A DNA stretch of 64,000 nucleotides from Tetradesmus obliquus (lineage: Eukaryota > Chlorophyta > Chlorophyceae > Sphaeropleales > Scenedesmaceae), in assembly GCA_030272155.1 (NCBI GenBank), contig CP126198.1, forward strand, positions 5,332,001-5,396,000, written 5' to 3'. Of the stretch, positions 653-64,000 are shown piece by piece. Position numbers and translations under genes: made by a program. The notes below the pieces were generated by a model that made no database searches, was not told where the DNA came from, and saw nothing but the letters and a program-made list of their open reading frames with translations. Numbering within the stretch: position 1 is the stretch's first letter; each line of letters opens with the position of its first letter.

Positions 653-3315
653 CTGCAGACTGTACAACAAAACCAAGCCAAGCCCCTTGCAATAAACATC
701 ATTTACGGTAAGAATGCCGATCAGAAATGCAGGCTACCCGCTGCTCACCTTGCGGTAGCGGCCCTCCAGCCTTGCATCCTCAAAGGCAAGCGTCCTTAGG
801 CGAACACGTTTGCATCATTACATATGCACAGTGTCACCATGCTCACCTTGCGGTAGTGACCCTCCAGCATTGCATCCTCAAAAGCAAGCTTCCTTAGGCG
901 AAAACCTTTGCATCATTACATACGCACCGTACCAAGCTGCTCACCTTGCGGTAGTGACCCTCCAGCATTGCATCCTCAAAAGCAAGCTTCCTTAGGCGAA
1001 AACCTTTGCATCATTACATACGCACCGTACCAAGCTGCTCACCTTGCGATAGTGACCCTCCAGCCTTGCGTCCTCAAAGGCAAGCGTCCAGCTGCTGTGC
1101 GGCACACCTAGCGGCCGCACTGCACAGTGCGCCAGCAGCCGCAGCTGCGCCTGCAGGCCTGCAGCATGCGCCACTTTCGCCTTCAGCTGCGGCTGACTCA
1201 CCAGCACCAGCAGGCGCTGCAGCATAGTGCAGCCCAGCAAACCTGCCACACACAGCAGCAGCTGGCCCTGCGCGTGGCGCAGCAGTGATGCCAGCAGCAG
1301 CAGCGTGAGGGCAAATTGCATGGCAGCAGCAGCCGCCAGCAGGGACAGCCGCAGCCAGGGCTTGCAGGAAAGCTGACTGTGCATGCGCTGCAGGCAGCCT
1401 GCTGCAAAGCGAGCAGCAGCGCCAGGTGGCAATGCTGCTGCAGCTGCATCTGGCTCATCAGCATCAGCTGTGGATGTGGCCTGGCAGCCTGGCAAGAGAT
1501 CAGAAGGCAGGGCGGCACCCGGCAGCCATGTGGCGCCGCCGCTGCTGCTGCTGCTGCTGCCGTCTTTCTGTGCTCCATCATTGCACACGCTGCAATCCGG
1601 CCGCTGAGCTGCCGCTGCTGCTGCTGCTGCTGCAGAGGAGCCGGAGCGGCAGCTGCTGCTGCTGTCCTCTCGCAGGGAACCCAACTCCTGCTGCTGCTGC
1701 TGCAGGTTGTGTGCCGCTGATGCCTCCCAGCCGGCGTCTAAGCTGCTCCTGTTGCTGTACGAGCCTACGCTGCTGCTGAACGGCACTGCTGCCTCAGATC
1801 CTGAAAAGCTGTCAGGGCGAGGGCCGCCTACACTAGCAAAACCGTCTTCAAGCTTATCAGCAGCACCAAACTCTGCAGGTGCGTTCGCCGCTGCGGCTTC
1901 ATGCGCGCCCCCAGACATCGCATTGTCAGCGATGCCTGCGACAGCAGCGGCAGCGCTGCAAGAGCAAGAACCTGCAGCCACAGAAGCAGCATGCTCGACA
2001 AATGTGCAGGGCATGCCATTGTTGACATCACCTGCTGCTGCTGCTGCTGCTGCTGCAGGAGGCTCAGCCGCACTGCTGCTGCTGCTGCTGGCAGCTGCTG
2101 TATGCTCGGTTGGCAGCCTTGCCCTGGCCGACGCAGCAGCTGCAGGCTTGGATGCTGATGCCCTCAATGGCACATCTTCTGCCAACTGCTCTGCAGCCGC
2201 AGCTGGCAGGCTTGACACCCCAGTAGCCACCATCGCCTGCTGCTGCTGCTCCTGCTGCTGCTCCTGCTGCTGCTGCTGCTGCTTCAGCTGCTGCTGCTGT
2301 TTTGCGACATAAGGCTCGGTAGCCTGCTGCTGGGCAGCTGCCGCACCAGCTCCAGCAGCAGCCGCATCACGCTGCTGCTGCTGCTGAGCCGAATGCAGCT
2401 GCGCTGCTGCTCGCTGCTGGTCCCTGAGCAGCTGCGTGTCTAGCCGCTGCTGCTGCTGCTGCTGCTGCTGCCTCGGCTGCTGCCTGTGCTGCTGTACGCG
2501 TGCGCGTGCTCCTGCGCGCTGCTGCAGCAGGCCGTGTGCGAGCTGGTTGATGCTGGTGAGGCCCATTGTGGTGGCAAACATGGCGGGCGTGGCTCCGTTG
2601 TCGGCCTTGGTGCTGAACCAAGCTACTGCGAGGCCTGCAGGCATGTGCCACACAGAGCAGCGCACATGTCAGCACACACGCACCCTGTCACCACGCAGCT
2701 CCACGCAACACAAGTGCGGCCAGGTGGCATGGTCACACAATACGCTGCAAGTTGTGCACCGGACGTAGCAGGACCGTCATGACAGCGCTGCGCCTTGCGT
2801 TAGCCTGGTATGCTACCGCAGTAGAACCCTGGGTTTGACCAATTCTCACCTGGCTTTGACTGCAGCACCATAGCTGCCACTGGCCGCTTCTGCTTGCCCA
2901 GCAGTGCAGCCAGGTGCAACGGGGTCAGCCCCATCGGCCCTGGGGCATCCCACGCAAAGCAGTGCCGGTGCCGCACTCCCCAGCCCATTACTGCAAGCAG
3001 CATTGGGGTGCTACCTGATCTCACAGCCCTGTGCAGCAGCCCTAGGCCGTCACTGCCTGCTGCTGCGCGTGCCAGTGTGGGGAAGGATGCAGCGGGGGCT
3101 GCTGCGGTGAGCAGGGTGTCGAGCACCATCTGTGCGGCGGCTGGGAGGCCGCGGTCCACGAAGAAGCACAGCAGGCGCACGCCCACATCCCTGCAATGCA
3201 GCAGCAGCAGCAGCAGCAGCAAGAGGATCAGCAGGATGTCGAGCACCATCTGTGCGGCGGCTGGCAGGCTGCGGTCCACGAAGAAGTACAGCAGGCGCAC
3301 GCCCACGTCCCTGCA

Positions 3316-3364
<49 letters not shown>

Positions 3365-5258
3365 GAGGATCAGCAGGGTGTCAAGCACCATTTGCGCGGC
3401 GGCTGGCAGGCCGCGCTCCACAAAGAAGCACAGCAGGCGCACGCCCACGTCCCTGCAGCAGCAGCAGCAGAAGCAGAAGCAGCAGGATGAAGACGCATGC
3501 GACAGATCAGCAGCAGCAGCAGCAGCAGCAAAAGAGCGCGCGCCGACGTCATAGCCAGTAACATCTGTAAAACACAGCTGACATTCAAGGCAAGCCCTCG
3601 TGTGCACAAGCTGCTGCCAAGCTTGTCTGGCCTGCAACAACAATCGCTTGATACTCACATCATGCTGTCGCAAGCAGACAAATCATCAATACAACCCCCT
3701 GCAAACTCACATCATGCAGCCGATGTACTCCGGCCCAAGCAGCGGGTGCTGTGTGGGTGCCCGCATCTGCACAGCTTCTTCCGCCTCTGCCTCCTCTGCA
3801 GCTTCCGCCTGCTCCTCCTGCTGCTGCTGCTGCTGCTCTGCTGGTGCAGCCACTGCTACACAGAAGGCACTGTCATCATCCGCCACTGTGTCAGCGTCCC
3901 CATCAGCATTCGAGCTGCCAGCAGCAGACACCCTCGCAGTCATCTGCCGCTGCCCAACCCCTGGAACAGCAGCAGCAGCAGCACTGCTGCCAGCATCCTC
4001 GGCATCCTGCTGCTCCGGCATGCCCCGTAGCTGCTGCTGCTGCTCCTGCCACTGACGCCGCCGCTGCTGCAGCACCTGCGCAACAGCCGCACTACTGTTG
4101 TTGCTGGCGCTGGCGCCGCTAGTCTCAACCGGCGGAGACCCATCTAGGCTGTTCCTAGAAGCTGGAGAGGCACTGCCAGACCGGAAGCTGTGGCCGGATC
4201 CCCCTAGCCTGAAGCTCCTGCTGCGCAGCGCAGCAAGGAATGCACTCCGGCTACTGCCCAATCCCAAGTCCAGTGACTGCGAGCGCCGCTTGTCGATAGC
4301 GTTGGAAGGAGAGAACAAAGAGAAGCTGCCTCCGCAGCTGCTGCCGCTGTCGCGCCGCGGTGGCGCCAGCGCGTCCCCAGCTGCGCTGCGCCGCCCGAAA
4401 GTGAAGCTGCGGTTGCGCACCAGCTGCGCAAAGCTCAGCCGGTCCTTCAGCCGCCGCGTCGCTGCTGCTGCTGCCGAGCCAAAGCCGCTGCTGCTGCCGC
4501 TGCCGCTGCCGCTGCTGCCGTTCACTGCTGCCGCAGCAGCTGCAGGGGCTGCCGGTGGCTTTGCAGCAGCAGCTACCCTGGAGCCAGAGCTGCTCAGTGA
4601 TAGAGTGGCCAAGGAGCGCAGCGCGCTGCGCCTGCTGCCATTTGCTGCAGCAGGTGATGAGGCAAGAGGAGGTAGGGCTCGCGCTGTGCTGCTGCTGCTG
4701 GCGTGCCTGCTGCTGCTGGCAGCGCTGACCTCAGCAGCGCGAGAGAAGGTCACAGATGCGGCACCTGGCGCTGGTCGTGCGCCGTTCCCTGCTGCTGCTG
4801 CTGCTGCTGTGCTGCTGGATTCAGCTGCAGGCTCAATTTCGCCCACAGCAGCTGCGCCGTGGTTTGTACGAGCGCTTGCAGAAGTGGCAGCAGCAGCAGC
4901 AGCAGCAGCCCCTGATGCAGGGACGCCTGGCGCATAGAGCAGGCTGGTTACAAAAGGCACACCCTCGTGCGCACTGTCGTCAATGTCGCGCTGCACGCGC
5001 GAGCGTTGGGCGCGCTGCCGCGCAGCAGCAGCAGCAACAGCGGCGGCGGTCGCCCTGCTACTGCTGCTGCCCTGTTGTGGCCTTTCTGCTGCTGCAGTCA
5101 AGGGAGCCGCATCAGCTGCTGCTGCAGGCTGCTCTACCTCCTCAGTGCTATCAGTGGCCTCTTCAAGCACCAAGCTGCCCCTGTGCCTCTCAAACACAGC
5201 ACGGAAGTCCAGCAGTCGCCCAAAGTCCACCAGCACATGCGCCGCCTCCGCCTGGCTC

Positions 5259-5293
<35 letters not shown>

Positions 5294-5770: not shown

Positions 5771-5807
<37 letters not shown>

Positions 5808-14000: not shown

Positions 14001-16383
14001 CAGTAGCAGCAGCAGCAGGAGGAGGAGGGTTTGATGCAGCTGGCGCCTTCAGCAGCTATGGTGCTGGGGTTGCAGGGGGTGCTGGGGCATCTGGAGGGCC
14101 TGGTGGCGAGCAGAATATGGCCGCGCTGGTGCACCGGCTGCGCTCTTTTGGCAGTGAGATGATGGCTGCTGATGAGATCAACTACATCCTGCGCATCCAG
14201 CACATGGCCACACATGGGGGGCACCCCTACCTGGAGGATTTTTACTACCAGGTGAGCACTGTTGACAGAGACTTTGCAAGTTGTATCTAAGCATTCTGAG
14301 CACATTTGATTTAGGGTGGGCGCATCCAGCACATGGCCACACATGGGGGGCATCCTTACCTGGAGGATTTTTACTACCAGGTGGGCACTGTTGAATTTGT
14401 TGATGCAGTCGCAGTGGCAGCAGCAGCAGCAGCATGCATGTCACTTATCCTGCGCATCCAGCACATGGCCACACATGGCGGCCACCCCTACCTGGAGGAC
14501 TTTTACTACCAGGTGGGCATTGAATTTGGTGTTGCAGCCGCCGCAGCAGCAGCATACATGTCATTTATTCTGCACATTCGACACATGGCCACACACGCGG
14601 GCCAGGAGTATTTTTACTACCAGGTAAGCACTGTTGACTGAGACTTTGCAGTTTGCAGCACCAGCTCTCAACTTGCACGGTTCTTTCACGCTTTCAACTG
14701 CACAGGCTTACCTCAACAAGTACTACGGCGGCCGCAACGCGCTCGTCTTTGCTCCGGCGGAGCTGCGCGACCTGGCGGCTGAACTGGCGGGCGCGCTGCA
14801 CCATGAGGGGGGCGTTGAGCCTCGCTTTGCTGACCTGTCTGGTCTGGGCAAGATCGTGCTGAGCAACATCCGCACACCCAAGATGCTCATGGACGTGGGT
14901 GGTGGCCCTGCTGCTGCTGCTGCTGCTGCTGGTGCGGACAAGGCTGGCAAGGCGGCGGCAGAGGGCAAGGCCAAGCCACTGGAGCAGGTGAGCGCTACAC
15001 AATGATCATGTTGTTATTGTGGTGCATTACGTCGCCAGCAGGTTCTCTGGCATGTGCTGCAGCACCTGTTACTGGCTCCCGTATCGATTGAGTCTTACGC
15101 AACATTCATTGCGCTCCCTGGTGTTGTCTGCGCATTGCTGTCCTGTCTCTGTCAACACTCAGCTCTATGCCATCCCATGACCTGTGCGTGCTTGTTTGCC
15201 TGCCTGCCCTGTTCGTGCCTTGCAGGAGCCCATGCTCGCAGCACGCATCATGATCGAGGACTGCATGCTGCTGCTGAGTGACGTGGAAGACATTGACCGC
15301 ATGTTTGCAGCAGCAGCGGCAGCAGCAGGAGGCGCAGGCGGCATGGCACCCCCTGGAGGCTCAGTACTGATATCCCCTGCGCAGGCAGCAAGCCTACTGC
15401 ATAGGCGCGCTGCTCTGCTGGGTGGTATCGCAGCATCATTCAGGCTGCCGAACGCACCTACGCTGCCAGGCGCAGAGGATTCTACTGCAGCAGCAGCAGC
15501 AGCAGCAGGAGGGGATGGGGTGTTCATCCGCTTGATGGGCCTGCCTAAGGGCAGGGCGCTTGTGAGCAAGACGCTGCGCCTAATGTTCAGTGCACCGCCA
15601 TCAGCAGCTGCCAACAAGGGAGGCAAGGGTGGTGCAGCAGCAGCAGATGCGGAGGGTGGCAGCAGCAAGTCAGTTGGCCTTGATGTGATTTGGGCACTGC
15701 TGCGCAACGCAGAGCTTACTTTCGGGCCTGCAGTGGCAGCAGCAGCAGGCAGTGAGGCTGAGCGCCGCATGACGAATGCAACCGTAGCGCTGTCAGCAGC
15801 AGCAAGCGAGATGATCAAGCGGCTGAGCACCCCAGAGGAGGCTGTAGCATGCCTTGCAGCGTGCATTGCAGGTCTGGAAGCCAGCACAGCTGCTGCTACA
15901 GCCGCAGGTGCGAGCCAGCTACTGCCGCTGTTCCCTGCCGGCAGGCTGCCTGCAGACGGCAGCCCAGATTGGCTTGGCGGCGTGCTGGCCTCACTACTGC
16001 TGCGCTCATCTGAGCTGGGGCTTGGTAGCTTTGCTGCTTCCGGCAACGTGCGGACGCTGGGAGAAGGGTATGACAAAGAAGCTCGCGAGCTCGCTGAGCA
16101 AGAGGCTCGCGAGTTGAGTAGCGCAGCGGACTCGGCTGCGGCTGCACAGTGGGGCAGGCTGCTTGGGCCCTTCTCTGAGCTTGTGATGCTGCACCTGTGG
16201 GCGCTGATTCAGGCGGTGAAAGAGTCCGGTGGTATGGCTGCTGCGGCTGGCGGTGCTGCTGTGGATGTGCGCGCGTATCTGCAGAAGCTGTCGTGCGTGC
16301 CGCTGATGCGGGTGCTGATGGCACACTGCGATGCGAAGCAGCAGGAGCAGCTGAAGAGCTACCTGTCGGAGCTGACCCACTGA
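11072..16383 (+). CDS. PAT1: PAT1 homolog, mRNA-decapping activator and P-body scaffold
   Basis: PAT1 bridges deadenylation and decapping of mRNA in cytoplasmic P-bodies. Exons are 11072-11084, 11169-11206, 11300-11377, 11691-11882, 12183-13224, 13653-14251, 14706-14987 and 15235-16383; all phases agree and give 1130 codons plus stop. The N-terminus is acidic (DLPIEALMDEEEEDEDLS), the middle is a Pro/Gly/Met/Gln-rich region, and the conserved C-terminal core follows. Diagnostic motifs are EMMAADEINYILRIQHMATH with PYLEDFYYQ, then EPMLAARIMIEDCMLLLSDV with DIDRMF, then FIRLMGLPKGRALVSKTLRL. These match plant and animal PAT1 closely. The first intron uses a GC donor (GGCAAGT). Two exon edges are duplicated in the following introns. 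Confidence 0.93.
13160..13385 (+). repeat. Duplicated 3' edge of the PAT1 Pro-rich exon
   Basis: The end of the exon (about 13165-13230, with GPGMGPGMPPRGPPLPG and a GTGAGC donor at 13225) recurs at about 13317-13380 with the same donor and following GCTGCTG. The copy lies downstream in the intron. Confidence 0.85.
14166..14625 (+). repeat. Four copies of the PAT1 exon edge encoding RIQHMATHGGHPYLEDFYYQ
   Basis: Copies end at 14251 (the exon used in the model), about 14381, about 14513 and about 14623, each followed by a GTGAGC, GTGGGC or GTAAGC donor. The second and third copies preserve nearly the whole motif; the fourth is degraded (HIRHMATHAGQEYFYYQ). The second to fourth copies are open in one shared frame. 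Confidence 0.92.
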
Positions 16384-19310: not shown

Positions 19311-19341
<31 letters not shown>

Positions 19342-21264: not shown

Positions 21265-24200
21265 ATGGCTCGAGAGGAGCGTCACAGGAACAGCAGTAGC
21301 TTCCTTGGCAAGCCTTCACTTAAGCATTTAGATGATGTGGAGGCAGACCTGCAGTGGCTCATGTCAGGGCAGCATACAGAAGCAGCAGAGGTTGAAGCAG
21401 CAGCAGGCATTACCCGCAGCAGCTTCCGTGAGTCCATCAGACAGCATCAGAAAAAGCTATCCGGCATCTTGACAGGAGTCAGCAGTAACACTCACACGCT
21501 ATCGACTGCTGCTGAGGATGGTGGAGGCAGCGGCACAGCGCAAAAGCAAGGGGAACCCCGGCGGTCACAACAAGCACAAGGCCAAAGCGGCAGCAGCAGT
21601 AGGCACAGCAGCAGCAGCGGCCGGCATAGCTTGCTGACAGATGTCCCACCACGACAGTCGCAGTTTGATGCCAGCAGCAGACACCAAGCTTCAGCTAAGT
21701 TTGGAAATGACTTGGCAGCAAACAGGGCTGCTAGTTGTGTCCAGCAGCTGTTCTGCAAGAGCACACAAAGCGAGCTGGGCACTCAGATGCAGCGACCGCA
21801 AGGGAGCAGGCAGTCAACCAAGCAGCTAGAATGTGACGTCAGCATGCAACAGCCCAGAGCATCCAGCGCTGCAAGATACGGCAGCCCAGGTGCACTGCAG
21901 CAGGAATGCGTGGTTACTGTGCTGCTGCAGCAGAACGATGCACTGCAGAAGCAGCTGCAGGAACTGCTAGCAGCCAACCAGCAGCAACCCGCACCACCAA
22001 CAGCAGCACCAGCATCGGAAGGAACAGCAAGCGAAGGCGGCGCAGCAGTGCAGCAGTTGACAGCCAATGAGAGGCGCCTAGTGAAAGTGCTGAAGAAGAT
22101 ACAGAAGGACAAGGACAGGTAAGGATGCCTGCTGCAAGCATCCAAAAGGTCCAGCCACAGGTGCTGTGCAAACAGCTCCCTGTTGTTGCCACACATGCAG
22201 CTGGTTGCCTCAGTCACACCACATCAATGTGCTCTTCCTGCTGATTGTGCTGCCACTTGGTTCGATTCCAAGGTGCTAAGGCACTGTGCCGTGTGAATGC
22301 CTTGCTGCATGTCGCGTTCCTGCAGGCTGAACGAGCAGGTGCAGCAGTTGCTAGGCAGCCAGGCAAAGCTGTTGGAGGCACGGGTGGATGCAGCAACACA
22401 GCAGACAGATGTGCAGCAAGGCCGCCAAGAGCGCTGTGGCAGCCAACTGCCGCAGGGTGTTGTGGTGACACTGCCCGAGCAGCAGCAGCAGCAGCAGCAG
22501 CAGCACAGCCAGGCTGGGCCACCTGCCAGCGGGGGTGATAGCTTGCTAGGCACGTCCATGCAGGACTTTGAGCTGCAGCTGCAGCAGCTGCAGTCTCAGG
22601 TGGACAGCATGGGAGGGCAAGGGCAGCCTCCGTCAACAACAGAGCAAGCATCGCTGGATGCTGCTGCTGTAAGTGGCTGCAAAGGCTTGCAGGCAGCAAG
22701 GTTATCAACACGATGCAGCCTGACGTCAGCTCAGCAGCAGCAGCAGCAGCAGCAGCAGTTGATTGATGACCAGGCTGCAACCATTGCTGACCTCAAGAGG
22801 GTCATTGCAGGTGAGCAGTTGTGGCCGGACTACATGCAACGTATTGTTGCACTGTGTCTCGTTTCATCCTTGCTCCACACAGCAATGCTGGCAGTCTGCT
22901 GTCTACCGCTAATCTTCTGCATGGGCGAAATTTAGATGCACTAAAGCACTGCTACTCAGGGATGTTCAAGTCGTCTGCATTCTGCTGTGCTGCTGTGCTG
23001 GTGTGTCACCCTGCAGAGCTGGAGCTGCAGACATCTGTGCTGCGCAGCCAAGCCGCCAGGCAGAGCAGCGCTGGCCAGGCCTTGACAGAGTGCCAGGCGC
23101 TGCTACAGCAACGGCAGCAGCAGGTGGAGGAGCTGCAACAGCAGCACGAGCTGTCACAGGTAAGGGTTTTCAGCGCTGAGCAGCCATGCGCACAAGGCAT
23201 TTGGACAGCATGCTTGCATGGAGGCTCGCATGCTGCACAGCATGTTTCCCATCTACACATTAGTGCTCAGGATGCGATGTGAGGGTTGCCGTGCTACTGC
23301 TGCTGTTCCTGCAGGCAGCCATCCGGCAGGCGATGCGTGCCACAGCAGCAGCGGAGGCGGAGCGCGACGCCTTGAGCAAGATGCTGCAGGATGCTGGGGC
23401 TGAGCAGCAAGCAGCCAGCAAGGGGCAGGAGGCGGCAGATCAGAATGAGCAGCTGCAGCAGGAGAATGGTGGGTTGGCGCGTGCATTGGTGCTCTGAATG
23501 CACATATGTATTGTCGTTGTTGTGCAGGCTGTGTGCACGTGTATAGCGCAAGCGCATGCATGCATCTGCTGTCTCCCTGACACGAACTTGCAAGTTGTAC
23601 TGTTAGCTTCTTACAGCTCTCTGCTTGCATCACAATGTAGACAGCCCTCACCTACTTGCCCACAGCTTGTCATCTGCTCTCTGTTTGATTGCCTGCTGCA
23701 GAAGAGCTGGTGTCGCTTGTGGCTCTCCTGCGCCAGGAGCGCCAGCATCTGCTGCAACGCCTGCTGGAGGCCAATGAGCAGATCAGCGACCTGCATGATG
23801 AGATGGGGCCAGCACTGCTGCGGGGCTCACCCACGCGCAACAGGCCCAGCAGTGCAGCAGCACGCGCCAGCGCAGCAGCACGCGTGTCCTGGCTGCTGCC
23901 GAGCGATGGAGGTGACAGCGGCGGCTGGGGCAGCGGGGCAGGCAGCAGCCATCCAGGTGGGCGTATAACACACCAGGGAGTCAAATGCATGAATAGCAGG
24001 TTACATCACTAGACCTGCGAGGGCGTCGTTGTACTTCCTGTCATAACATGCACCCAAATAGCTTTTGAGCCGCCAGATACCAAGCTGGGCTGCTTATGCT
24101 GCTGCCCACCTTGAATTGCATCCTGTGTCTGTGATGCTGCTCAGGCTCCTCATCCGGCATTGGGCAGCAGCTGTCAGCGGCTGTTGGCGAGCTGTCCAGC

Positions 24201-27200: not shown

Positions 27201-27905
27201 CGCCAGAGGGCCAAGGCAAGCAGCCCTATGGCCTCAGCAGATGGAAGCACTGTACAGCAGCAGCAGCAGGTAGAGGCTGGCCGCGCAAGCAGTAGGAGCA
27301 GCTTTGCATCTCAAGATGGCAGCAAGGCGGCTGTGCTGGCGGCTGTGCTGCAGCGGCAGCTCTCCAACAGCAGCAGCAGCAATGCGGGCGCACGCTCGCG
27401 CGGAACATCAGTCTCTGGCTCAACAGCAGCAGCTGCAGCAGCAACTGCTGGTGAAGGTGGTGGTCAGCAAGACAGAGCAGCACTGATCGCTGCTGTGCTG
27501 CAGCGGCAGAAGGCGAAGCAGGCAGGCGAGGCGCCAGGGCCGTTATCGGCCCGCAACTCCAGTACATCACTTGCTGTTGCTGGTGCAGCAGCTGGCGCGG
27601 CTGGCAGCAGCAACAGCAGGCCTGCATCTCTGAGTGGGGTGCTTAGTGCAGAGCCATCAGCAACAGGTTCGCCGCTGCAGTCGCCCAGGGGTACTTCTGC
27701 GCTGGCAGGCAAGGATAGGGCTTCGTTAGTGGCAGCTGTGCTGGCGCAGCGGCAGCAGAAGCAGCAGCAGGGCGCTGAAGTTGTGAGCCCCCGCAGCAGT
27801 GCGGCAGCTGTGGGGCAAGGGCCCAAGGCGTCGGCGGCAGCTTCGAGTGATAGAGCTGCATTGGTGGCAGCTGTGCTGGCCAAACACCGTGTGACAGGCA
27901 GTTGA
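21265..27905 (+). CDS. Large coiled-coil protein with C-terminal DRAALVAAVL repeats, unrecognised
   Basis: About twelve exons can be chained: 21265-22118, 22326-22810, 23017-23159, 23315-23469, 23702-23957, about 24150-24302, 24482-24612, 24788-25312, 25555-25706, 25909-26391 and about 26625-27905. The start ATG encodes MAREERHRNSSSFLGKPSL. The N-terminus is Ser/Gln-rich; the middle has long heptad-like coiled coils (QNDALQKQLQELLAANQQQ; ALLRQERQHLLQRLLEANEQ; DLQEEVLALRA). The C-terminal exon is Ser/Ala-rich with five spaced copies of a D(R/K)A(A/S)LVAAVLxRQ motif, the last at the extreme C-terminus. The layout suits a scaffold or cytoskeletal protein, but nothing identifies it. Confidence 0.75.
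27168..27896 (+). repeat. Five protein-level repeats of an amphipathic DRAALVAAVL motif
   Basis: Copies lie at about 27168, 27318, 27471, 27714 and 27850: DRAALVAAVLERQRAK, SKAAVLAAVLQRQLSN, DRAALIAAVLQRQKAK, DRASLVAAVLAQRQQK and DRAALVAAVLAKHRV. Spacing is uneven (80-245 bp), with low-complexity Ser/Ala linkers. This suggests selection on the motif rather than a young tandem array. Confidence 0.85.
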
Positions 27906-29888: not shown

Positions 29889-30801
29889 AGAAAGCTCACC
29901 ATTGCAGCAGGGGTGACTGTTCAGCGCTCAGCACACCTGTGCTCGTACCTGATCACAGACAAAGCCCCAGGAGCAGCAGGCAGGTGCTGCGTGCGTTATC
30001 AGAGCGGGCACCGATGGCAGGAATGCCGGGAGCAGCACCCACCAAAGGGTTATCCGGCAGGTTACGCTCCGCCAGTATAAATGTTGATCAGGAATGATGG
30101 GTGCAATGCAGGCTAGTTTCAGTGCTGTTCAGTGCTGTGGACTCCAGCAGAAAAAATCTTGCAAGGGCTTATACTAGTTAGTAGGTTAGCAGGAAGTGTT
30201 GAGCTCTGGGTGTGAGAAGCGCTGTGCAGCAGCGGATGAGTGATGAGCTGACCTGGAGGGAGCCCACTGTAACAATACATTTCACATAACGTGGTTGACC
30301 TTGACTGGGTTTCACAACCAACACCGTAGACGCATGGCAAAAAGGAAGTGGGCAGGGCTGCCGCCACCAGTCACAAACAGTTGTGTTGTCGACAGTACTG
30401 TGCAAAGGCAAGTGCTCGCCTGCTACTAGCTAGTAGCTGCTGCACCAGCTTTGCTAAGACAGCACAGACAAGACGCCAACATACCTAGGCCCGTGGATGT
30501 TTCTGGTAGATGTTTCTGGCAGATTTTGAAGAATATCAATGCTGTAGCTGTGTACACAGCTTAACATGTCTTTATATGTTAAGATCTCAAAGGGGAGTCA
30601 AAACTCTACTGCAAGTGCAGCGCCGCCTGCTGCTGCAGTGACGTCATTGCAGAGCATTTGAGCTGCCCAGCATTTCGCAGTTGTCAGTGATACATGGTTG
30701 TTTGAGAACTGCCTTTTCCGCCACTGTTGTTACGGATGTAACCGCCTCTGCCAGCATGCTGCAATGCGCATTGGGCACGTGCACGTGGGCACGTGCACGT
30801 G
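29889..30801. other. Intergenic region with a CACGTG cluster next to the mobile element
   Basis: No coding exon is supported. Close to the mobile element, at about 30775-30802, the text contains nested copies of GCACGTGCACGTG, i.e. several overlapping CACGTG palindromes. Confidence 0.4.
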
Positions 30802-34483: not shown

Positions 34484-34503
34484 CTGCAGGGGGCGGAAAA
34501 CAT

Positions 34504-34540
<37 letters not shown>

Positions 34541-36711: not shown

Positions 36712-36746
<35 letters not shown>

Positions 36747-39700: not shown

Positions 39701-40904
39701 CACACATCAGCACCATGTGCAGCAGGCAGCCCCACTCCAGCGCGTCACCTGCACAGCATGTAATAATTCACTTCAACACGTATGGCATGCAGGTGCCTGT
39801 TGTGTATCATGTGCAACCAACAAAGCCACAAGCGCATCCGCGACCAGAGCACGTAAGAGCACCAGCAGGCGCCAAACCATCGCTGCAGCTTAACCGTATC
39901 TCCAAACCCGGGCATGATGCTGTCCTCTTGGCCCGGTGGGCCCTGAACCTACGCCCCTAGATCTGAACTGACACCGTTGCAGTACACATGCCATGGTAAT
40001 CATTATGATGGCTCACCCGTGTCTTTGAAACCGAGCATGAAGATGCCGTCCTTCTCTAGGCACTCGTAGCCCCTTGATCCTACATACCTAATCCTAAACA
40101 TCCAGGCTCAGATACCATTTTCAAATCTCACCCGTGTCACCAAACGCGAGCATGAAGATGCCATCCTTCTCCTGACCCTGTAGGCCGCTGTACCGGTACC
40201 TCAGGTCTTCACTCAACATGTTCATGTACCAATGCTACAAAAACAATATTTGTGTCTCACCAGTGTTGCCAAAGGCAAGCATGAAGATGCCGCCCTTTTC
40301 TTGGCACTCGTAGCCCCATTGATCCTACATGCTAACCCTAAACATCCAGGCTCAGTTCATGTTTCACCTGTGTCGCCAAATGCGAGCATGAAGATGCCGT
40401 CCTTCTCCTGACATTCGTAGCCCCTGCAGGCGCTCAGGCTAGTGCGCACAGCCGAGCAGAACATCTCGCGCGCCTGCTTGGCAGCGCGGCCACAGCTGGC
40501 TTCAAGCGCCCGCATGCCCTCGGGCGCGCAGAACGCGACAGTGACCTGCGGCCGCACATGCCAGGGTGCAAGGTGTTAGTGGCCGGAGAAAAAATACAGG
40601 ACATGATAGGAGTCGAGCGCGGCTGGTTTCAAGCGCACGCATGCCTTTGGGGGCGCAGAACGCAACTGTCACCTGCGGTCGGATCACATGCCAGGATGCA
40701 AGCTTCAATGGCTGCAAAGAGCAGGTCAGATAACAGCAATGGACTGCTTGCACGGCACAGCCCGCACTGGTGCAGCTGCAAGAGCAGTTGCGCTACGGCT
40801 GCCAGCAGATAGCAGCAACAGCAGCACAAAAGCACTGTCATTGCACTGCCATGACAACGCCCGCCCGCCCGCCCGCCCGCCCGCGCGCACGCCCGCCCGC
40901 CCGC

Positions 40905-40961
<57 letters not shown>

Positions 40962-43900
40962 CGTACCACTGGCAGCGGCTGCTAGCAGGACAACAGAGAC
41001 AGCAGCAAAGTTTCCTTGCCATTGCAATGTAAACACAAACACGCACCACTGGCAGGATCTCCCGCTTGAAGACCAGGCCGTCTGGCAGCAGCGCGTCGGC
41101 AGCAGAGGGAGCTTGGAAGTAGGAGGGATAGATCTGCACGCAATGACAAGCAGCAGCAGCAGTGGCACCGCATGAGGTTTCAAGAAGAGAGAGGTGAAAT
41201 GCCACCAGCGGTGGCAATCAATCTGCAAGACAGATTATCAACTGATAAAAAGGACGGGTGGATCTGCATGCCAGGCACCAGGAGAAGCGGCATTACGGGC
41301 AGTTGCATGAGAAGCTCCTTGCAATCCAGCGCGGAAAGCACACACGCTATGTTCCTCACGCGCACATCTTCACTTGCATGCCTTCACGCCCACACCTTCA
41401 CGCACACATCCACCGATTCTGCCCCAGCTGGCATAGACGGACGCGCACACACATGAACATACACACCCCATCAGCCTCATCAGGATGGCAATAGAAGCAC
41501 ACGCAAGCGCGCGGACACAAAAACACGCACACGCACACGCACACGCACACGCACGCGCACGCACACGCGTGCGCACACGCACACGCACACGCACGCACAC
41601 GCGTGCGCACACGCACACGCACACGCACACGCGCACGCGCGCGCGCGCGCGCACGCGCACGCACACGCGCACGCGCACGCACACACACACGCAAACGCAG
41701 ACCCATGCGCACGCGCACGCACGCGCACGCACGCACACGCGCACGCATGCTGCATGTGTGCACACACACGCGCAAACGCAGACCCATGCGCACGCGCACG
41801 CACGCACACGCGCACACATGCAGACGCACGCATGCTGACACAACGCATGGGGAGACACAAATGCAGACGCAATGCGCGCAGACGCAGCGCGCGCGGACGC
41901 ACAAATGCAGAAGCAGCGCATGCAGACGCACGCGCGCAGACGCACGCATGCAAACGCAGCGCGCACCAACACACCTCGCGCAGACGCACACGATCAGGTG
42001 CACGTGCACACAGACACATGCACACAAACACGTACGCAGACGCATGCGCGTAGATGCACGCATGCAGACGCAACCCGCACAGACGCATGTGCGCACACGC
42101 AACGCAAGGACACACACGAACACAGATGCAATGAGCACAGACGCATGCGCGCAGACGCTACGCGCAGATGCCACGCACGCAGACGCAATGTACACGGATG
42201 CGGGCGCGCAGACGCACACGCACGCAAACGTCAACGCATACATACACAGAAGCTTGCATGCACACAGACGCCAGCGCGCCAAAGGACGCGCCCAGATGCA
42301 CGCACACGGACATGCACATGCCCGCAGACGTAAGCACACACAGACGCAGACGCACGCAGACGAGCACATGGGCGTACGGGTAATCCTGCCGACACAATCA
42401 TGCGCGCACTGGCATGACCGAGGTGACGCTAGTATGCATGCTCAACTCCGCACAGCGCGATTGTGCACACAGGCAAACTATTATGACACTCTGAAGACCA
42501 TGCGTTTGCACGTTTAGTTGATGCTACCATGCATGCACACACGCTTGCGCACCCAGCATCCTCGCGTGCGTGCGTGCGTGCGCACATGCACATTATCGTA
42601 TAATGCGCTCAAACAATCACAAAAGCGTTCAGGCGCGCACGCGCGCACACCTCACGACACGTGCGCACGCACAGGCGACATATGCACTCCCCAGCCACGC
42701 CACAACCTCTTCACGCGCACCACAAACCACCATGCAAACGCATCAGCCAGCCTCACCTGCCGCTGTGTCGCCAGCGCTGGAAAGTGTGCAGCCCTGGGCG
42801 CCAGCCGCCGCGTCACGATCTGCGTCAGCCGCACCCCTTGCAGCGCTATTGCGGGGCTTCCCAGCACTGCTGAGCTGCCAAGCCCATCCATCCAGTGACT
42901 GCCCAGGTCTATGACCATGGGGATGTGCTCATTATCCTGGATTGCTGCTGCTGCGGCTGCTGCTGGGCTGGCACCACTTTTCAGCAGGGTGGCCACTGCC
43001 AGGGTGCTGGTGTCCCTGATGAAACAAGGGGGCACGCAGCAGACGAATGTGATTAAATGTTATACATGCTGTGTGTCCAGTTGGCTGGGCTTCCAAACAT
43101 CAGACACACAGCATTGTTGAACAGCTGCTTGCTCTGCATGATGCCGGAGTAGCTGGTGTCTTGCAGGCTGTGACTGCTGCTGAGCATAATGGCCGTGGCA
43201 AGCACTCCTGCTTGGTTCCACTGCTGCTGCAACAGCTTCACAGTGATAGAGCACTAAGCACAGCAATGAGCCACCGGTTCTGCAATGTGTGTGGCACTAC
43301 TTTTAAGTTATGGACGCACTTTGGTTTTGTGCCACCTGGTGCAGCAGCAGCAGCTTCCAGGTCCTGCAGCTCCACTGAGCTTGTGCCGGCAAGCCTGTTG
43401 CCCGACCCTGTGCTGGACGAGAATAGCCGCGCTGCAAACGGCAGCGCACCTGCAAGTGATGATGCATGCGGACATTGCAGCAGGAGGGTGTGGGCAGCGC
43501 GCACGCGGGCCATGGGCAACGTTGGCGAGAAATGCGCAGTGCCCGGTGCGTGCAGGTCCATTAAAACATGCTCACGTGCAGCGCCTCCACAGAATCTACA
43601 CCATCCCACAACAGCATCACAAATGTGCTGGCCAACGCGCGCCAACCATTGGTTTGGGTAGTTGCGCACAGCCTTGGCTGAAGGATGTGCTTCACTCCTC
43701 AGATCCAACAATAAAACCATGTTTGCCTAGCTAACAACTGCCCAAAGGTATTGGCCACTCACTTGATGTTGATATGGCATCCACAGACCTCCTGCGGGTC
43801 TGCGAGGCAGGCCACAGCCAGTGCAGCCAGCCGCCGCCAGCTGCTGCTGCTGCCTCATCTGCATGATGCGCGTCACCAGCAGCACCATGCGGGCTGGCTG

Positions 43901-46900
43901 CAGAGCCTGCTGCTGCTGCTGCTGCTGTGCTGCCTGGTAGCTCAGTTTGGTGGCTGCCGTGCTTGTGCCGTTGCGTGCTATGCTGCTGGTGCTGCAGCCG
44001 GTGGCTATGCTGCTGCTGCTGCTGCTGCCCGAGCAGGTGGGCGCCGTTTGCGAAAGGGCCGTCCCTGCTGCTGCCTGAGGTTGCGCTGCCAGAGCTGCCT
44101 GCCGCCTGGCCTGCAGGAGCAAACAGAGGCGGAGGCAAGAGAAGATTGGTTATGTGCGGCTGCTTTTGTGGCATATGTTTCACGCTGCCAGAGCTGCACG
44201 CTGCCTGGCCTGCAAAACGAAGGAAGCCACAGCGGCAGCGGCAAAGAGAAGGTTGCCGTGGGCAGCTGCATTACAGCATGTTGATCAAGCTGCGGGATGT
44301 GATTTAGTCAGTCACACAGGTCCCTGCAATTGTGACGACTGGAGCATTTTGCAACATGTGTGGCAGACGAGCGGTGCTCTATTCAATCAGGCAGCTGGGG
44401 TTTGCGCAAACGAAGCCGCAAGCAGAGCAGTCAGCTCACCAGGCAGCAACCTGCCATCATCTAGCTGCTGCTGCTTGCTGCTGCCTAGCACAGCAACGCC
44501 TGCTGCGCCTGCCGCCTCGCCTTCAGTGAGCATAAGGCGCACCCCCAGCTCTGCCAGGCGCGAGGCGATGCTGCTGAAGCTGTGGGGGCCTAGCAACACC
44601 TGCATCAGCAGCAGCAGCAGCAAGCACCAGCAAGCACCAGCAGAGGTTGGACTACAGCCAACAGCAGCGGTTACAGCGCTTGTGTGTATGTCAGTCGTGA
44701 GGCGATGCTGCTGAAGCTGTGCGGCCCTAGCAGCACCTGCAGCAGCAGCAGCAGCGAACACCAGCAGTTGAAACACAGTCTACTACAGCGGTAACAGCAT
44801 TAGTGTGTATGCCACGCGTGAGCTAAGCTGCTGAGCTGTGGATATGCACCTGGGCGACTCAACATATGTTTGCAACTTGCGATTCTTCAGCTGTGTGTGC
44901 ATGCTGGTTGTCGCAGCTGCGGCAGGCTCACTGCTCACCTATCCGCCGGCTGGCAAATCGCTGAGTGCAGCCACCATGTCTGTGACTGGCCCGGCATACA
45001 CCATGTGGCTGCAACACACGCCTTGCACTTGCCACTTGCCTGACAGCCGTCCTCAATATCTGCAGCTGATGCGCGGCGGCAGCGCATTGCAGTGTGTGCA
45101 TGCCAAACATGCAGCTGTGCGCAGGCTCACCTGTCCGCCAGCTGGCAGGTCGCTGAGTGCAGCCACCATGTCTGTGACTGGCCCAGCATACATGAGCGTG
45201 TTGGTGAGCTCGTGCGCGTACACCATGGAGGGAATGCCTGCAAGCGTGGTACAGAGCAGCAAAGCGCAGCACAGCACAGCACAGCACAGCACAGCACAGC
45301 ACAGCACAGCACAGCACAGCACAGCACAGCACAGCACAGCATACACCAGCGTGTTGGTGAGCTCATGCGCATACAACATAGAAGGTATGCCTGCAAGCGC
45401 GATGCAGCACAGCAGAGCACAGCACATCACGTAACAGCGCAGCACAACACAGAACAGCAAACATGAGCGTGTTGGTGAGGTCATGCGCATGCACCGAGGA
45501 AGGAATGCACGCAACCAGCCTTAACACACATCACAGCACGCCACATATCTGGCAAGAGATGTAGCAGCTTCAGCCAAGCGGTACAGTGCTGGCAGTACCG
45601 CACATGCTGCTGACCAAGGAGCTGCCCTAAATGCAGCCGTACATGCAATGATGCAGCAGGCCGGCACACTGCACCCTCCCACCTGTGCTGACGGCCACGC
45701 GCACGCGCAGCCCCCTGAACAGCAGCTGCCCCGGCCTGCTGCTGTCTGCCGTTCTGCCTCACATGCTGCTGCCTTTTTGACCTGCGCTGTTTGCGGCCTT
45801 TCAAACCACAACAGAACGAGGTGACGGAGTGTAGGTCCTGACGCCGCCTAGAACCGTCCGAGTAACAAGGACATCAAACCATTGCCTGAAACTAAAAAGC
45901 TTCCGCACAAGTCATCCAGCTGAAGCACCCTCTCACCTGTGCTGACAGCCACGCGCACCCTCAGGCCCCTGAACAGCAGCTGCCCCGGGCGGCTGCTGTC
46001 AGCCGCGCTGCTGTACACGACACCAGCCTTCTCGTGGCTCAGCAGTGCCTGCGGCCAGTCTGCCTCCAGCATGGCCTGCTGCATAGCCAGGCTCCAGCAG
46101 ACAGCATCGAAGGCGTCATGAAAGGCAATGGTGAAGCTGTCGCCCTCTGTTGTCACCTCATAGCCACAGTACCTGCGGTTAAGAAAACACGCTTTGATGT
46201 TCAGGGTTAGGCTAGGGGATGAGGGATATGAGGATCATGAAGGGATAGCGAAGCTGTCGCCCTATGTCGTCACCTCGCAGCCACAGTACCTGAATGAGGA
46301 AAAGTGAGGAGCTTCCAGGTTTCAGGTTTGGGGTTTGTGAAGCATTTAAACATCACAGCAGGCAAGTGTGAAGCTGTCACGTTGTGGCCGCAATACCTGC
46401 AAGCGCAGAAGTGAGGGGCATTCAGGTGCAGGTTGAGAATCTGCGGCATCTTGGCATCATGTAAGCCAGTGGTGATGCTGTCAGCCGCGTTGATCGCTGG
46501 TAGCTGCAGTGCCCGTCACAGCGTGCGCATAATGAGTTGGGTGCTGCCGCTCACCTTCCAATCAAGCTGCGCATGACGCTGTCATGCACCTCCTGCGCCA
46601 GCGTCATCCCTAAGCACTTCAACCCGTCATAGCACTGCTGCTGCTGCCACCGCTGCTGCCGCTCACCTTCCAATCAAGCTGCGCATGACGCTGTCGTGCA
46701 CCTCCTGCACCAGCGTCACACTGCCAGTCAGGCTGTGCATGACACTGCTGCTGCTGCTGCTGCTGTTGCTACTGTTGCTGCTGCTGCCGCTGCTGTTGCT
46801 CACCTTCCAATCAAGCTGCGCATGACGCTGTCGTGCACTTCTTGCGCCAGCGTCATCACCGCGTAGTCCCACTCCCATAGCTCCGTAGAGCCCTCCACGT

Positions 46901-48380
46901 CAGTCACCACCAGTGTCACCTCACGCAGCACCCTGCAAGACAGAAACACAAGCTAGGAGATGAACCATGCTCCAATTGTAAACAAGCAAGTGTACGTGTT
47001 TGGGAATCAAATGGAACAAGAAAACACAGCTGAACGTGCGCGCCATGCCACACAATTGTTGCCCCGCAACACACACGCGTGCCTGGCGCGGATTGGAGAC
47101 AGCAAATGTCAGTAACAGGCCGTTATTCCTAGCAGCGCACCTGTCATTGCCGTCGCTGATTATGCCCGGTGCATTGCGGCGCTTCCAGGCCTCTGTCAGG
47201 TGGACGGCGTCGTGGCACAATAACCAACAATAAAGCATGACAAACGTTCTGACACCACCACCACCGCCCATGCAGTTATCGAACCACCATGCAGAGCAGC
47301 AAACTCTGACACCAGCATCAGTCAAGCGCGCACATCCTGTCTGCCGCACCAAGCATTGGGAACACTGCGTCAAAAAAGAAGTCATCGATCAGCAAACACA
47401 CCTGTCATTGCCGTCGCTGATTATGCCCGGCACGTCGCGGCGCTTCCAGGCTTCTGTCAGGTGGATGGCGTCATGGCAACATAACCAACAATCAAGCATC
47501 ATCAACAGTCCACTACCTACCATGCAGTGCAGCAACCTTTCAAACAGCAGCAGTCAAGCACGCACGTCCTGAAAACTGCGTCAAAAATGAAGTTATCAAT
47601 CAACAAACACACCTGTTATTGCCGTCGCTGATGATGCCTGGCGCGTTGCGGCGCTTCCAGGCCTCTGTCAGGTGAATGGCGTCATGGTTGATTTATGCAA
47701 ATAACACTAGTGTAAAATCCCATCTCAGCAAACGCAGATCAACTACCCACCATCGGTGTACGCCCTGCCCTGCTTCACCAAGCCATCAAACACTACCGCT
47801 CAGGGTCTGTTTACAAAGCGTCACCCGCAGCGGCGCACCTGTCATTGCCGTCGCTGATTATGCCCGGTGCGTTGCGGCGCTTCCAGGCTTCCGTCAGATG
47901 GATGGCGTCATGGCTACGCTTGAGGTAGCGCAGGTAGCGCATCAGCGCCACGCTCAGCAGCACCAGGCCAACCGACACTGCCAGGGACGGCACCAGGATC
48001 ACAATGACCAGCACCTGTTTCAACAGCGCAGACGGTGCAGTGTGCCTCAACTAATCAGGTGAGCAGCAACAGCAGCAGCAGCAGCAGCAGCTAAACACTC
48101 AGCAACACCAGGCCCACAGATACAGCTAGATAAGGGACGAGGATCACAATGACCAGCACCTGCGGCAGCACAAGTGGTGGGGTGCGTGTGGCTGTCACAA
48201 ACATGCTTGAGGTAGCGCAGGTAGCGCATCAGCGCCACACTCAGCAGCACCAAGCCCTCCGACACAGCTAGAGAAGGCACCAGAATAACAATCACCAGCA
48301 CCTGCAGCAGCGCAGATGGTGCAGCGTGTCATGCAGCGTGTCACAAATGACCAGGTGTGCAGCAGCAGCATCAGCATCAG

Positions 48381-48459
<79 letters not shown>

Positions 48460-48796: not shown

Positions 48797-48848
<52 letters not shown>

Positions 48849-49572: not shown

Positions 49573-49629
<57 letters not shown>

Positions 49630-61053: not shown

Positions 61054-61777
61054 TCAGATGCAGCTGCTGGTGGCTCCCACAATGGCAGTCTCATTTGACC
61101 AGAGAGCAGCAGCAGGCAGTGTGTCCCTGCAAGCAGCAGCAGCAGCAGCAGCAGCAGCTTGTCAGCAGCTGGAAGAATATCATCAACAACCAGCTCAGTT
61201 CCCGGTTCCGACAGATGGCCACACATCAGCAGCATCAGCAGCGTGCGCAGTGTACTCACAAGCCTTTGCTATGCTGTGTTTGCCATGTGCAGCAGCAGCA
61301 GCACTTACACTTTAATGCGATCAGCTGCCTGCGCACAAATGATAGCATGCTGACAGTTGTTGTTCTCACCAGGGGTTGTTCATGACATCATTTGTGACAT
61401 ACACCCAGCCAGCATGCCTCGCGCGAGCCAGGCCCAGTGCACTGCCAAATGCCGCCGCATTCGCAGGTGCAGAATGCACCAAGTGCCAGAAGCGGTGCGC
61501 AGGATATGCTGCAGTCCACGCGGCTGGCCCGCTCCAAGATGAGTAAGCAGAGTACGTGTCTTCAAAGTTTATGATGATATCTGGGGTGTTGGCAGCAGCT
61601 GAGAGGAAGCACTCTGGGCCTTGAGTGCCCCAGTTGAGTGCTGTGAGAGAATTTTGGGCCTTGGATTTTGTGTAGGCGACGAGCTGCTGGTAGTAAGGCA
61701 GGGTGGCACAGTCTGTGGATCCTTCATCCAGAAAGATGCCGCTGATGTTTTGGTAGAAGTTGTAGTACCTGTTGGTA

Positions 61778-61811
<34 letters not shown>

Positions 61812-62669
61812 GCAGCAGCACTAGTATGTTTCCCTACTTCAGGAAAAAGCCGCTTTGATGGCCGAGTAGAAACTGTAGTACCTGTAAAAAGATAGTGGCG
61901 TGAGATGAAGATGTAAAATGTGCAGTCAAAAACATGATGGTGCATTATGCAGGGTGTTTGCAGCAGTCTGTGGAGCCCTCATCTAGACAGATGCAGCTGA
62001 TGCTGGGGTAGAAGCTGTAGACCTGTTGGTAAAGACATGAAGAAGTGAAGTTCAACCATATGCTATGCATTCAAGGCGGATTATGAGGCCGCAGAATGCT
62101 ATGCCATGTTCTAAAGGTGCACCCTCAAGTGTTACAAATGGTTCCAAGGTGTCTGACGTAAACCTTGCTGCTTGTGTGTGGGTCAGTGTGTTGTACTCTG
62201 CCTAGTGCTAGCATGCAATGCTGTAATGCTTGACAGCTTCACAGCAGGGTGAATGCAGGTAAATGAGCAGAGCGACATGGTGTTGCGCATCAAAAGCAAC
62301 AAGCGTGCAACCAGTCAGCACACAACGCAGCAGCCAGCTACTTACTTGTCAATGTCAGCCTGTACTGTTGCTGCTGCCCTTGCGCCGTAGCCAGTGTAAG
62401 TATACGCCAGCACGATGAGTCCTGCAGCCTTCATGTTATTTACAATTGTAACATAGTTTGAATCGACAGCTGTGCCTGGCCCGCTTGCAGGATTGATGAT
62501 GACTAGGCGAGTTGCGTCATTGCCGGAGGTACGGCTCCAGTGGCAGGTGGCAGTGTTTGTAAAGCAAGGGTAGTAATAAGAAGGAACGCCAATCTGCTGT
62601 GTGGTGGATGTCAGGCGGACTTCAAAGTCCCAGAGACCAGGCGCAGATGGCAGGGTGTCCCTGAGAGAT

Positions 62670-62736
<67 letters not shown>

Positions 62737-64000
62737 TTGTAGCAAAGTAAATGACAACAGCAGCTGAGGCAGTATGATGGATGTGAGGCGCACTTGTAGG
62801 TCCCAGAGGCCAGGCGCAGAAGGCAGCGTTTCTCTGAGGGATGCAGCAGCAGCAGCAGCAGCAGCAGCAGCTTCAGCTGGAGGAGGAGCAGGAGCTAAAG
62901 AGTAGCAGGTGGCAGACGTGGTGGCAGCAGCAGCAGCAGGGGCGATATTGTGAAGTGCCTCAGCTAGCTGGCATCATCTGCTATTGCATGGCAACTTTGT
63001 TGTCAACGCAGGCTGCCTTTGCATTGCAGCCATGCATTACAAAGACAGCAGTTCAGCCACCACAAACAGCACAACAGAGAACCAGAGTGATGTCGCAAAT
63101 CGTTCCGCACACCTATGCAGTTCCGCCGGCTCACCAAGGGTTGCCATCTGGTGTGATGCTGTCGTCAGTCACGTACACCCAGCCAGCCCGCCGCGCCTTG
63201 GACAGAGTCAGCACCTTGTAACAGTCATACACATGCTGTGTTGCACAACAACAGCAGAACTGCAATGCCAACAATGCATTGCAAGCAGCTGCACCCAACA
63301 GGCACCAAAACGCCAGAAATATAAGCGTAGCAACTGCACATCCACACAGCTGACTCACCAAGGGTTGCCGTCTGGTGTGATGCTGTCATCTGTCACGTAC
63401 ACCCAGCCAGGTCGCCACGCCTTAGACAGCATCAGCGCCTTGTAACAGCCTTACACATGCTGTGTTGCACAACAACAGCACAACTGCAACATCAACGATG
63501 CATTGCAAGCAGCTGCACCCAACATGCACCAAAGCGCCAAAACCATAAGCGTAGCAACTGCACATTTACACAGCTGACTCACCAAGGGTTGCCGTCTGGT
63601 GTGATGCTGTCATCAGTCACATACACCCAGCCAGCCCGCCGTGCCTTAGACAGCATCAGCGCCTTGTAAAAGGCCTCAGGCGTAGGCGGAACTTCATACA
63701 CCAGCTGCCAGAATCTGCTTGCAGGATAATCTGACACCCAGGCAGCTGGCCCTGACCAAGTCAAGTAGCTTGTATAGCTGCTTTCAAAGTTGACCACAAT
63801 ATCGGGTGCGTTAGATTCAACTGTGAAGAAGCATTCGGCTGCTGCTGAGTCTGTGCCCCAGTTTAGGACTGTGGTGGGTGCTGGAGCGGTGCCAGCAGAA
63901 ACCTTGGATTTCGTGTACCCGATCAGCTGCTGGTAGTATGGTACAGTGGTGCATTCAGTGCTGGCTTCGTCAAAGAAGATGCCACTGACTCCATACCAGC
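61054..64000 (-). CDS. Spherulin-4 / GH135-like protein with at least two domains, 5' end outside window
   Basis: Exons on the minus strand: from beyond 64000 to 63593, 62660-62346, 61768-61370 and 61126-61054. The first carries GVSGIFFDEASTECTTVPYY, then NAPDIVVNFESSYTSYL, then RRAGWVYVTDDSITPDGNP. It joins in phase to WDTLPSAPGLWDFEVR. A second domain follows: RLVIINPASGPGTAVDSNYV, AGLIVLAYTYTGYGARA, then KYYNFYQNISGIFLDEGSTD and DIIINFEDTYSAY. The last exon is DTLPAAALWSNETAIVGATS and ends SCI. The Asp-Glu pair (FDE/LDE) and the later Glu (NFE) fit the proposed catalytic residues of GH135 (Sph3) enzymes. The NPW-stop readings seen at 63579 and 61366 are donor sites (TG|GTGAG), not stops. 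A secreted polysaccharide-active role is inference. Confidence 0.88.
61745..62030 (-). repeat. Copies of the GH135 exon 5' edge (KYYNFYQNISGIF)
   Basis: The exon start at 61768 is echoed upstream at about 61845-61882 (short) and about 61965-62023, the latter including the DEGSTDC-like segment. Each has a possible acceptor. A (GCA/GCAACA)n run lies at about 61779-61820. Confidence 0.8.
62610..62842 (-). repeat. Duplicated GH135 exon 5' edge flanking a (GCA)n tract
   Basis: The exon start DTLPSAPGLWDFEVRLTS (62660) is repeated upstream at about 62770-62838 as ETLPSAPGLWDLQVRLTS with its own CTCAG acceptor. About 21 GCA units at 62671-62734 lie between them. Confidence 0.9.
63130..63672 (-). 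repeat. Three copies of the GH135 exon 3' edge
   Basis: The segment LSKARRAGWVYVTDDSITPD plus GNP and the GTGAGT/GTGAGC donor occurs at about 63593-63670 (real exon end), 63358-63440 and 63134-63220. Spacing is about 225-235 bp. Confidence 0.93.

Follow-up and report, generated by a model that had tools for sequence, protein, structure and literature searches.

Ladders of silent exon-edge copies in introns of Tetradesmus obliquus

Silent partial copies can exchange sequence with an expressed gene, and the repeats of a tandem array can evolve in concert. The intronic arrays described here are similar to such exchange systems in that silent partial copies resemble the adjacent expressed copy. 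They differ from them in that the differences are largely synonymous, the genes include those for a kinesin and a cyclase, no diversification is apparent, and the exchange is something that we infer.

A second group of related systems concerns the origin of introns. Introns have been described as arising by tandem genomic duplication of segments of exon, or of intron plus exon, in the potato RdRp gene (PMC4974935) and in Drosophila (PMC2891723), and this source has been reviewed (PMC3443670); the same literature cites Gao & Lynch 2009 and Hellsten 2011. As in this process, a segment carrying splice signals is duplicated locally and in direct orientation, and the coding sequence can stay unchanged; the potato unit (PMC4974935) likewise comprises intron-exon structure. 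In contrast to intron gain, the extra edges are silent, serial and located inside an existing intron, they are found at around one in ten of the junctions probed, and exon blocks last longer than spacers. Break repair can give rise to small tandem duplications (PMC8355091, which cites Vaughn & Bennetzen 2014 for rice), and these are likewise short, local and direct. Introners (PMC9860276) also change introns on a genome scale, but they are mobile families common to several genes, whereas the three ladders that we searched are private to their gene. An introner or other mobile element is not supported as the source, as related sequence at unrelated loci was absent for these three ladders and between-locus matches were few, with 4 outside kinesins in about 310 kb; the idea that the spacers are a mobile element found no support either. 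A literature search, weak evidence since subscription papers were mostly outside its scope, returned no account of ladders of silent exon edges that are kept alike. The surprising part is that the exon blocks persist while the adjoining DNA often does not, even when one silent copy is compared with another.

Exon-edge copies in the window and in other loci

The window, the whole stretch of 64,000 nucleotides that was analysed (C8:5332001-5396000), belongs to a genome of 104.66 Mb in 17 contigs. It was compared with 20 further 10-kb stretches from 14 contigs, 20 kinesin loci located with a Pfam PF00225 profile search, and one extra kinesin stretch. Four of these 20 (L030, L037, L038 and L039) partly coincide with others of the set and thereby inflate the denominators of the repeat scan, the 40-nt probes, the control-intron and wrong-edge comparisons, the random placement and the per-gene counts; the main counts were redone without them. 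Two satellite loci (L002 and L009) were excluded, and the repeat scan covered about 311 kb, or 301 kb once overlapping loci were removed.

Exons and introns were called with a simple gene finder that was trained on our own data with kinesin matches as seed and has the consensus CAG/GTGAGC for donors and CTGCAG/G for acceptors. It labelled as exon 94.7% of the 8,928 bases in 42 Pfam kinesin stretches, which were hand-chosen from 135 PF00225 matches (mostly stop-free, in sampled loci) and 14 of which had served as seed. At times it read silent copies as exons, and it overlooked one gene of the window (GH135, see below). The ladder of this missed gene and that of the so-called PAT1 gene, where copies were taken for exons, are therefore outside the statistics, as is kinesin exon B, which the gene model misread or missed.

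An earlier sequence-only reading of the window had described intronic ladders of exon-edge copies in four genes, named SBP factor, PAT1, cyclase and GH135. We found all four, the first and third by self-alignment and probes, PAT1 and GH135 by reading the sequence. Pfam matches agree with the names of the SBP gene (PF03110, E=1.3e-27), the cyclase gene (two Guanylate_cyc stretches, PF00211), a K+ channel gene (ion channel, PF07885) and the gene near 63 kb (Spherulin4, PF12138, which we take to be GH135). The region named PAT1 had no Pfam match, and its name rests on that first reading. Self-alignment of the window revealed about 25 clusters of local direct repeats by our own tally, with low complexity removed. 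For seventeen junction calls in the window, 11 donors and 6 acceptors, the 40 exonic nt at the junction recurred close by, although at least three of them (38053, 40079 and 46666) duplicate arrays counted elsewhere and 48202 is a doubtful donor. The arrays are as follows.

749-1089, minus strand: donor-type ladder of the SBP-domain gene; live 3' edge 1043-1089, silent 945-991, 847-893 and 749-795; unit 98
3198-3452, minus strand: acceptor-type copy of the SBP-domain gene in CAG-rich surroundings; live 5' edge 3198-3310, silent 3340-3452
14186-14650, plus strand: donor-type ladder of the so-called PAT1 gene, by sequence reading; live edge ends at 14251, silent ends 14380, 14512 and 14623, the last with a deletion
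34884-35289, minus strand: donor-type ladder of the cyclase gene; live 35229-35289, silent 35005-35065 and 34884-34930
37994-38189, minus strand: donor-type copy of the cyclase gene; live 38117-38189, silent 37994-38066
39121-39403, minus strand: more diverged donor-type ladder of the cyclase gene; live junction at 39360/39361, followed downstream by silent ones at distances of 122 and 240 nt
40017-40424, minus strand: donor-type ladder of the cyclase gene; live 40368-40424, silent starts 40261, 40132 and 40017
44555-44736, minus strand: acceptor-type copy of the cyclase gene; live 5' edge 44555-44599, silent 44692-44736
44939-45192, minus strand: donor-type copy of the cyclase gene; live 45131-45192, silent 44939-45000
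45184-45508, minus strand: acceptor-type ladder of the cyclase gene; live 5' edge 45184-45237, silent 45337-45390 and 45455-45508
45683-46005, minus strand: donor-type copy of the cyclase gene; live 45937-46005, silent 45683-45751
46133-46289, minus strand: acceptor-type copy of the cyclase gene; live 5' edge 46133-46172, silent 46250-46289
46555-46857, minus strand: donor-type ladder of the cyclase gene; live 46804-46857, silent 46667-46718 and 46555-46608
47141-47914, minus strand: donor-type ladder of the cyclase gene; live 47839-47914, silent 47613-47687, 47402-47477 and 47141-47216
63130-63672, minus strand: donor-type ladder of the Spherulin4 (GH135) gene, by sequence reading; live edge within 63578-63672, silent 63354-63448 and 63130-63224; unit 224

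In a genome-wide search the ladders at 47141-47914 and 63130-63672 had no match elsewhere. Ladders were seen with 15 of the 27 probes of the cyclase gene, with none of 28 in the K+ channel gene and none of 11 in the gene at 21518-27902, and the two ladder-free genes are those that had been singled out as such before. The ladders are not a speciality of the window: loci on other chromosomes have them as well, and direct local repeats were seen in the window and in most other sampled loci.

About one in ten splice junctions in the examined parts of the genome carries extra silent copies of the exon edge in the adjoining intron. By local alignment, with overlapping loci removed, a copy in the edge's own flanking intron was present for 26 of 234 donors and 24 of 228 acceptors, compared to a fraction of 0.000 at a score of at least 38 for unrelated introns from other loci. 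Half-decayed copies were few, the donor fraction being 0.128 at a score of at least 26 and 0.104 at a score of at least 38. In the scan with 40-nt exonic probes, a copy was defined by at least 31 of 40 matching exonic nt, also for the junction-aligned profiles, so that blocks shorter than about 40 nt are under-counted in both; dropping low-complexity probes left 205 of 369 acceptor and 201 of 361 donor junctions. Acceptor probes found a copy upstream in 20/205 cases and downstream in 5/205, donor probes downstream in 29/201 and upstream in 8/201. Some copies on the unexpected side come from arrays where the model had called a silent copy as the exon. Copies of the wrong edge were found in 3/165 and 0/169 cases by local alignment. 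The rule that copies of the 5' edge lie upstream and those of the 3' edge downstream of their exon thus holds in the larger sample, but it proves little by itself, because geometry dictates it whenever a tandem duplication keeps the exon intact. Intron-side probes yielded copies upstream in 1/90 and downstream in 3/90 cases for acceptors, and in 4/179 and 6/179 cases for donors; reversed and antisense probes gave 0 copies in the same loci.

A ladder anchored by homology lies in a kinesin gene on C2, where a single intron contains two silent copies of the 3' edge of the upstream exon and six of the 5' edge of the downstream exon, spaced 123-141 bp apart. Each of the six carries 3-4 differences from the live exon in 66 nt. 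Pooled over the six, 17 codons with a single change are synonymous and 3 are not; as these differences are mostly common to the copies, the synonymous bias stems in part from changes on the live branch.

Anatomy of the copies and the duplication unit

Homology between live edge and copy extended over a median of 53.5 nt on the exonic and 10 nt on the intronic side (72 copies), and its intronic part measured at most 14 nt in 49 of the 72. In junction-aligned comparisons, agreement between live edge and copy was about 0.85-0.9 for the 40-50 exonic nt next to the junction; on the intronic side it dropped to background within about 10-25 nt. Pairs of silent copies gave the same profile, with exon blocks about 0.85 alike and intron flanks at background, here with few acceptor arrays. 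When gaps were permitted, the intron flank was recognisable in 59% of acceptor and 46% of donor live-copy pairs and in 55% and 43%, respectively, of copy-copy pairs, compared to the exon block in all of them. Near-identical blocks with an abrupt loss of homology inside the intron were observed in L034 and at L010 6562. The exon-side end is near-constant inside arrays (e.g. 47, 47 and 47; 75, 76 and 76; 49 and 49), with a mean within-array standard deviation of 6.5 nt in 16 arrays against 27.3 overall, so that an array looks like one original breakpoint that was multiplied. For the three ladders searched genome-wide, copies lie only beside their own exon, and no paralogous source was found elsewhere.

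Doubtful calls in L013 and L015 were excluded from the tests of homology extent, splice-site strength, decoy against live site and exon-side AG, the last two of which also omit two double-called acceptor arrays. Mutually exclusive or cassette exons were rejected as a reading of the copies, an exon-side AG being present in 9/49 donor copies compared to 6/49 at a control position; the same test lends no support to mini-exons.

The approximately 311 kb contained 207 direct local repeats and 1 inverted one, a denominator inflated by overlapping kinesin loci. Among 101 minimal spacings, 68 fell into 90-159 bp; the mode was 120-129, and a second, lower peak lay at 210-259. Together with the clustering by gene described below, this supports the earlier suggestion of a duplication-prone process. 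The earlier interpretation as a whole is supported in part. A junction was contained in a copy in 46 of 82 arrays compared to 35.3 under random placement; mixed arrays numbered 18 against 10.9, both-intronic arrays 9 against 16.5 and both-intergenic arrays 7 against 14.5. This enrichment of junctions is modest, and purely intronic arrays exist; their unit size equals that of junction arrays, so the duplication process extends beyond junctions. The common unit size suggests a single process. Tandem duplication across splice junctions, as proposed from the window, agrees with direct, same-strand copies that contain the junction; it does not explain why the exonic and intronic parts of a unit are mostly unequal in similarity, being equal in some young arrays (window 743-1089, L020).

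With overlapping loci removed, 47 ladder junctions were counted for 418 probes in 34 genes, and 20 of these genes had none. The heterogeneity between genes was 123.1 compared to 33.0 under permutation, with 0 of 5000 permutations as large, and persisted without the kinesin loci (66.1 vs 17.0) and without the window (76.4 vs 28.9). Third-position GC was discarded as a driver of these differences (Spearman 0.09, p 0.59). A search of the Guanylate_cyc family for ladders that run in families gave 11 matches only. A periodicity of intron lengths is suggestive at most. With its unit of about 120 bp and the strong differences between genes, the duplication process is open to direct study.

Proposed exchange with the live exon, or plain duplication

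The copies stay similar to the exon even where the intervening DNA has diverged, as it often has, which suggests a mechanism that holds them together in sequence. Our preferred reading, with a probability of roughly 45%, is that tandem duplications of about 120 bp leave silent edges behind, and that gene conversion with the live exon would maintain the block while the spacers drift. The first step, a local tandem duplication with a unit of about 120 bp, is shown as a pattern. Such a unit would span an exon-intron junction, and splicing at the outer site would preserve the reading frame; judged from reading frames, the outermost site is probably the one in use. A silent edge with its splice site would thus stay in the intron and could then be multiplied into a ladder. 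The silent block may subsequently recombine with the live exon and with other blocks, most likely by gene conversion, which would homogenise the constrained exon sequence, while unconstrained spacers would drift until they are unable to pair. Recombination between silent and live copies would account for intact donors and coding-like variation, because a bad copy that overwrites the exon would be harmful and hence disfavoured. We infer gene conversion from the pattern of blocks and flanks within one genome.

A competing explanation, which we regard as rather unlikely, is plain tandem duplication over junctions followed by neutral decay, with the edges conspicuous only since the live exon changes slowly. 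It fits the identical unit size of intronic and junction arrays and the several arrays that are full tandem repeats, and it makes the positional rule automatic. The divergence of the exon blocks, however, does not follow that of the spacers. Between live edge and copy it was 0.128 with and 0.118 without spacer homology, and between copies 0.156 and 0.162, respectively; within 13 arrays, pairs with non-homologous spacers were more diverged in 6 and less diverged in 7. The similarity of the exon blocks is independent of their flanks, as expected of gene conversion or concerted evolution. Plain duplication and decay is hard to reconcile with this independence and with the fact that homology ends near the splice site even between silent copies, whose exon blocks are alike and whose flanks are at background although both are free to change, the flank being unrecognisable in 57% of donor and 45% of acceptor copy-copy pairs. 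The scarcity of half-decayed copies likewise speaks against it. Incompatible site pairs were present in a few arrays, in small numbers.

Third positions made up 0.494 (0.43-0.58) of the variable columns among copies, where the mutation spectrum of the spacers predicts 0.332; this test contains a few double-called arrays, and once L013, L015 and the acceptor call at 40079 are set aside, 69 of the 135 variable columns are third positions. Changes private to one copy comprised 52 synonymous and 76 other changes, a synonymous share of 0.41 compared to 0.28 expected, and as private changes are nearer to neutral, the constraint on silent copies is weak. Part of the third-position bias is due to changes on the live branch, as in the kinesin ladder. 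Against the conversion model stand this weak constraint, the live-branch share of the bias, the weaker silent acceptors (see below), and young arrays that fit plain duplication.

A more far-reaching version of the conversion model, which we put forward tentatively and consider doubtful as a whole, would see the arrays as private silent exon-edge cassettes kept in step by local recombination. As a bad cassette could overwrite the exon, intronic DNA would come under coding and splice-site selection though it is untranslated, and at either end of the intron the spliceosome would choose the site lying furthest out over several decoys of equal strength.

Splice-site strength and the remaining explanations

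A serious rival to recombination, though in our estimate an unlikely one, is that the copies are functional decoys: selection would retain silent edges that bind splicing factors and regulate site choice, intron retention or transcript decay. Splice-site strength is the property that was measured here. GT was retained in 52 of 56 silent donors, which also keep the consensus at +1, +2, +3 and +5, and the median donor strength was 8.7 bits for silent compared to 9.3 for live sites. In 21 of 28 donor arrays and 11 of 16 acceptor arrays, some decoy matched the live site in strength. These values, as well as the strong differences between genes, are in line with decoys that function. Silent acceptors, in contrast, were weaker than live ones (median 5.7 vs 8.2 bits, with 4/20 below 0), and the conserved block reaches 45-80 nt into the exon, up to an array-wide breakpoint, which exceeds what a splice signal needs. 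Coding-like variation is not predicted by a splicing role either, and the few ladder-rich genes that can be named by Pfam have no common theme. Under the conversion model, equally strong decoys would be ignored, perhaps because the exon is recognised as a whole unit and a lone edge lacks a partner site.

Exon-only copying, in which a short edge with its splice site would be inserted into the intron without flanks, e.g. from RNA or by templated repair, appears improbable. The sharp loss of homology just inside the intron, even in near-identical blocks, is what it would produce; the exon-side end common to the copies of an array and the several homologous spacers indicate multiplied units instead of independent insertions. 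An assembly or sequencing artefact is highly improbable, as errors should yield near-identical units, whereas the copies differ mutually, their spacers are often unrelated, ladders lie on many contigs and the adjoining exon stays open.

If the conversion model is true, the ladders would offer many natural tests of how the spliceosome chooses among nearly equal sites, and of whether non-coding DNA can come under coding selection through its exchange with an exon. Automatic annotation can take silent edges for exons, as our own gene model did.

Kinesin ladder at a comparison locus

At C2:7429801-7433000 (L041), elsewhere in the genome, a kinesin exon is accompanied by six silent acceptor-type edges, extra copies of its 5' edge with the splice site, with CTG-rich spacers between them. 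Exon, silent edges and spacers form a single long open frame, and the gene model, seeded with kinesin matches, therefore called one exon.

Spherulin4 matches

Spherulin4 (PF12138) was matched twice on the minus strand within window positions 61369-63998. The match at the 63.6-64.0 kb end of the window covers profile positions 96-222, while the other, further on in this region, covers 2-87 plus 87-226. The two matches therefore probably represent adjoining paralogues.

Repeats in the window and elsewhere

A repeat of approximately 95 bp at 33346-33440 is dispersed through the genome (276 candidate sites); all 40 candidates scored matched, with 84-88% identity, self excluded. An Rfam search of 30000-35000 revealed nothing matching over this repeat, which is perhaps a short mobile element. 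Outside predicted genes, 30802-32274 holds two longer direct repeats (98-100% identity):

174 bp, offset 1029
182 bp, offset 443

The predicted cyclase gene contains a long low-complexity tract, ACGC-like and CGCA-rich (40857-42187). Satellite-like arrays with approximately 98% identity were observed at two comparison loci:

C1:4507001-4517000 (L002), 311-312 bp units
C5:2707001-2717000 (L009), 311-312 bp units
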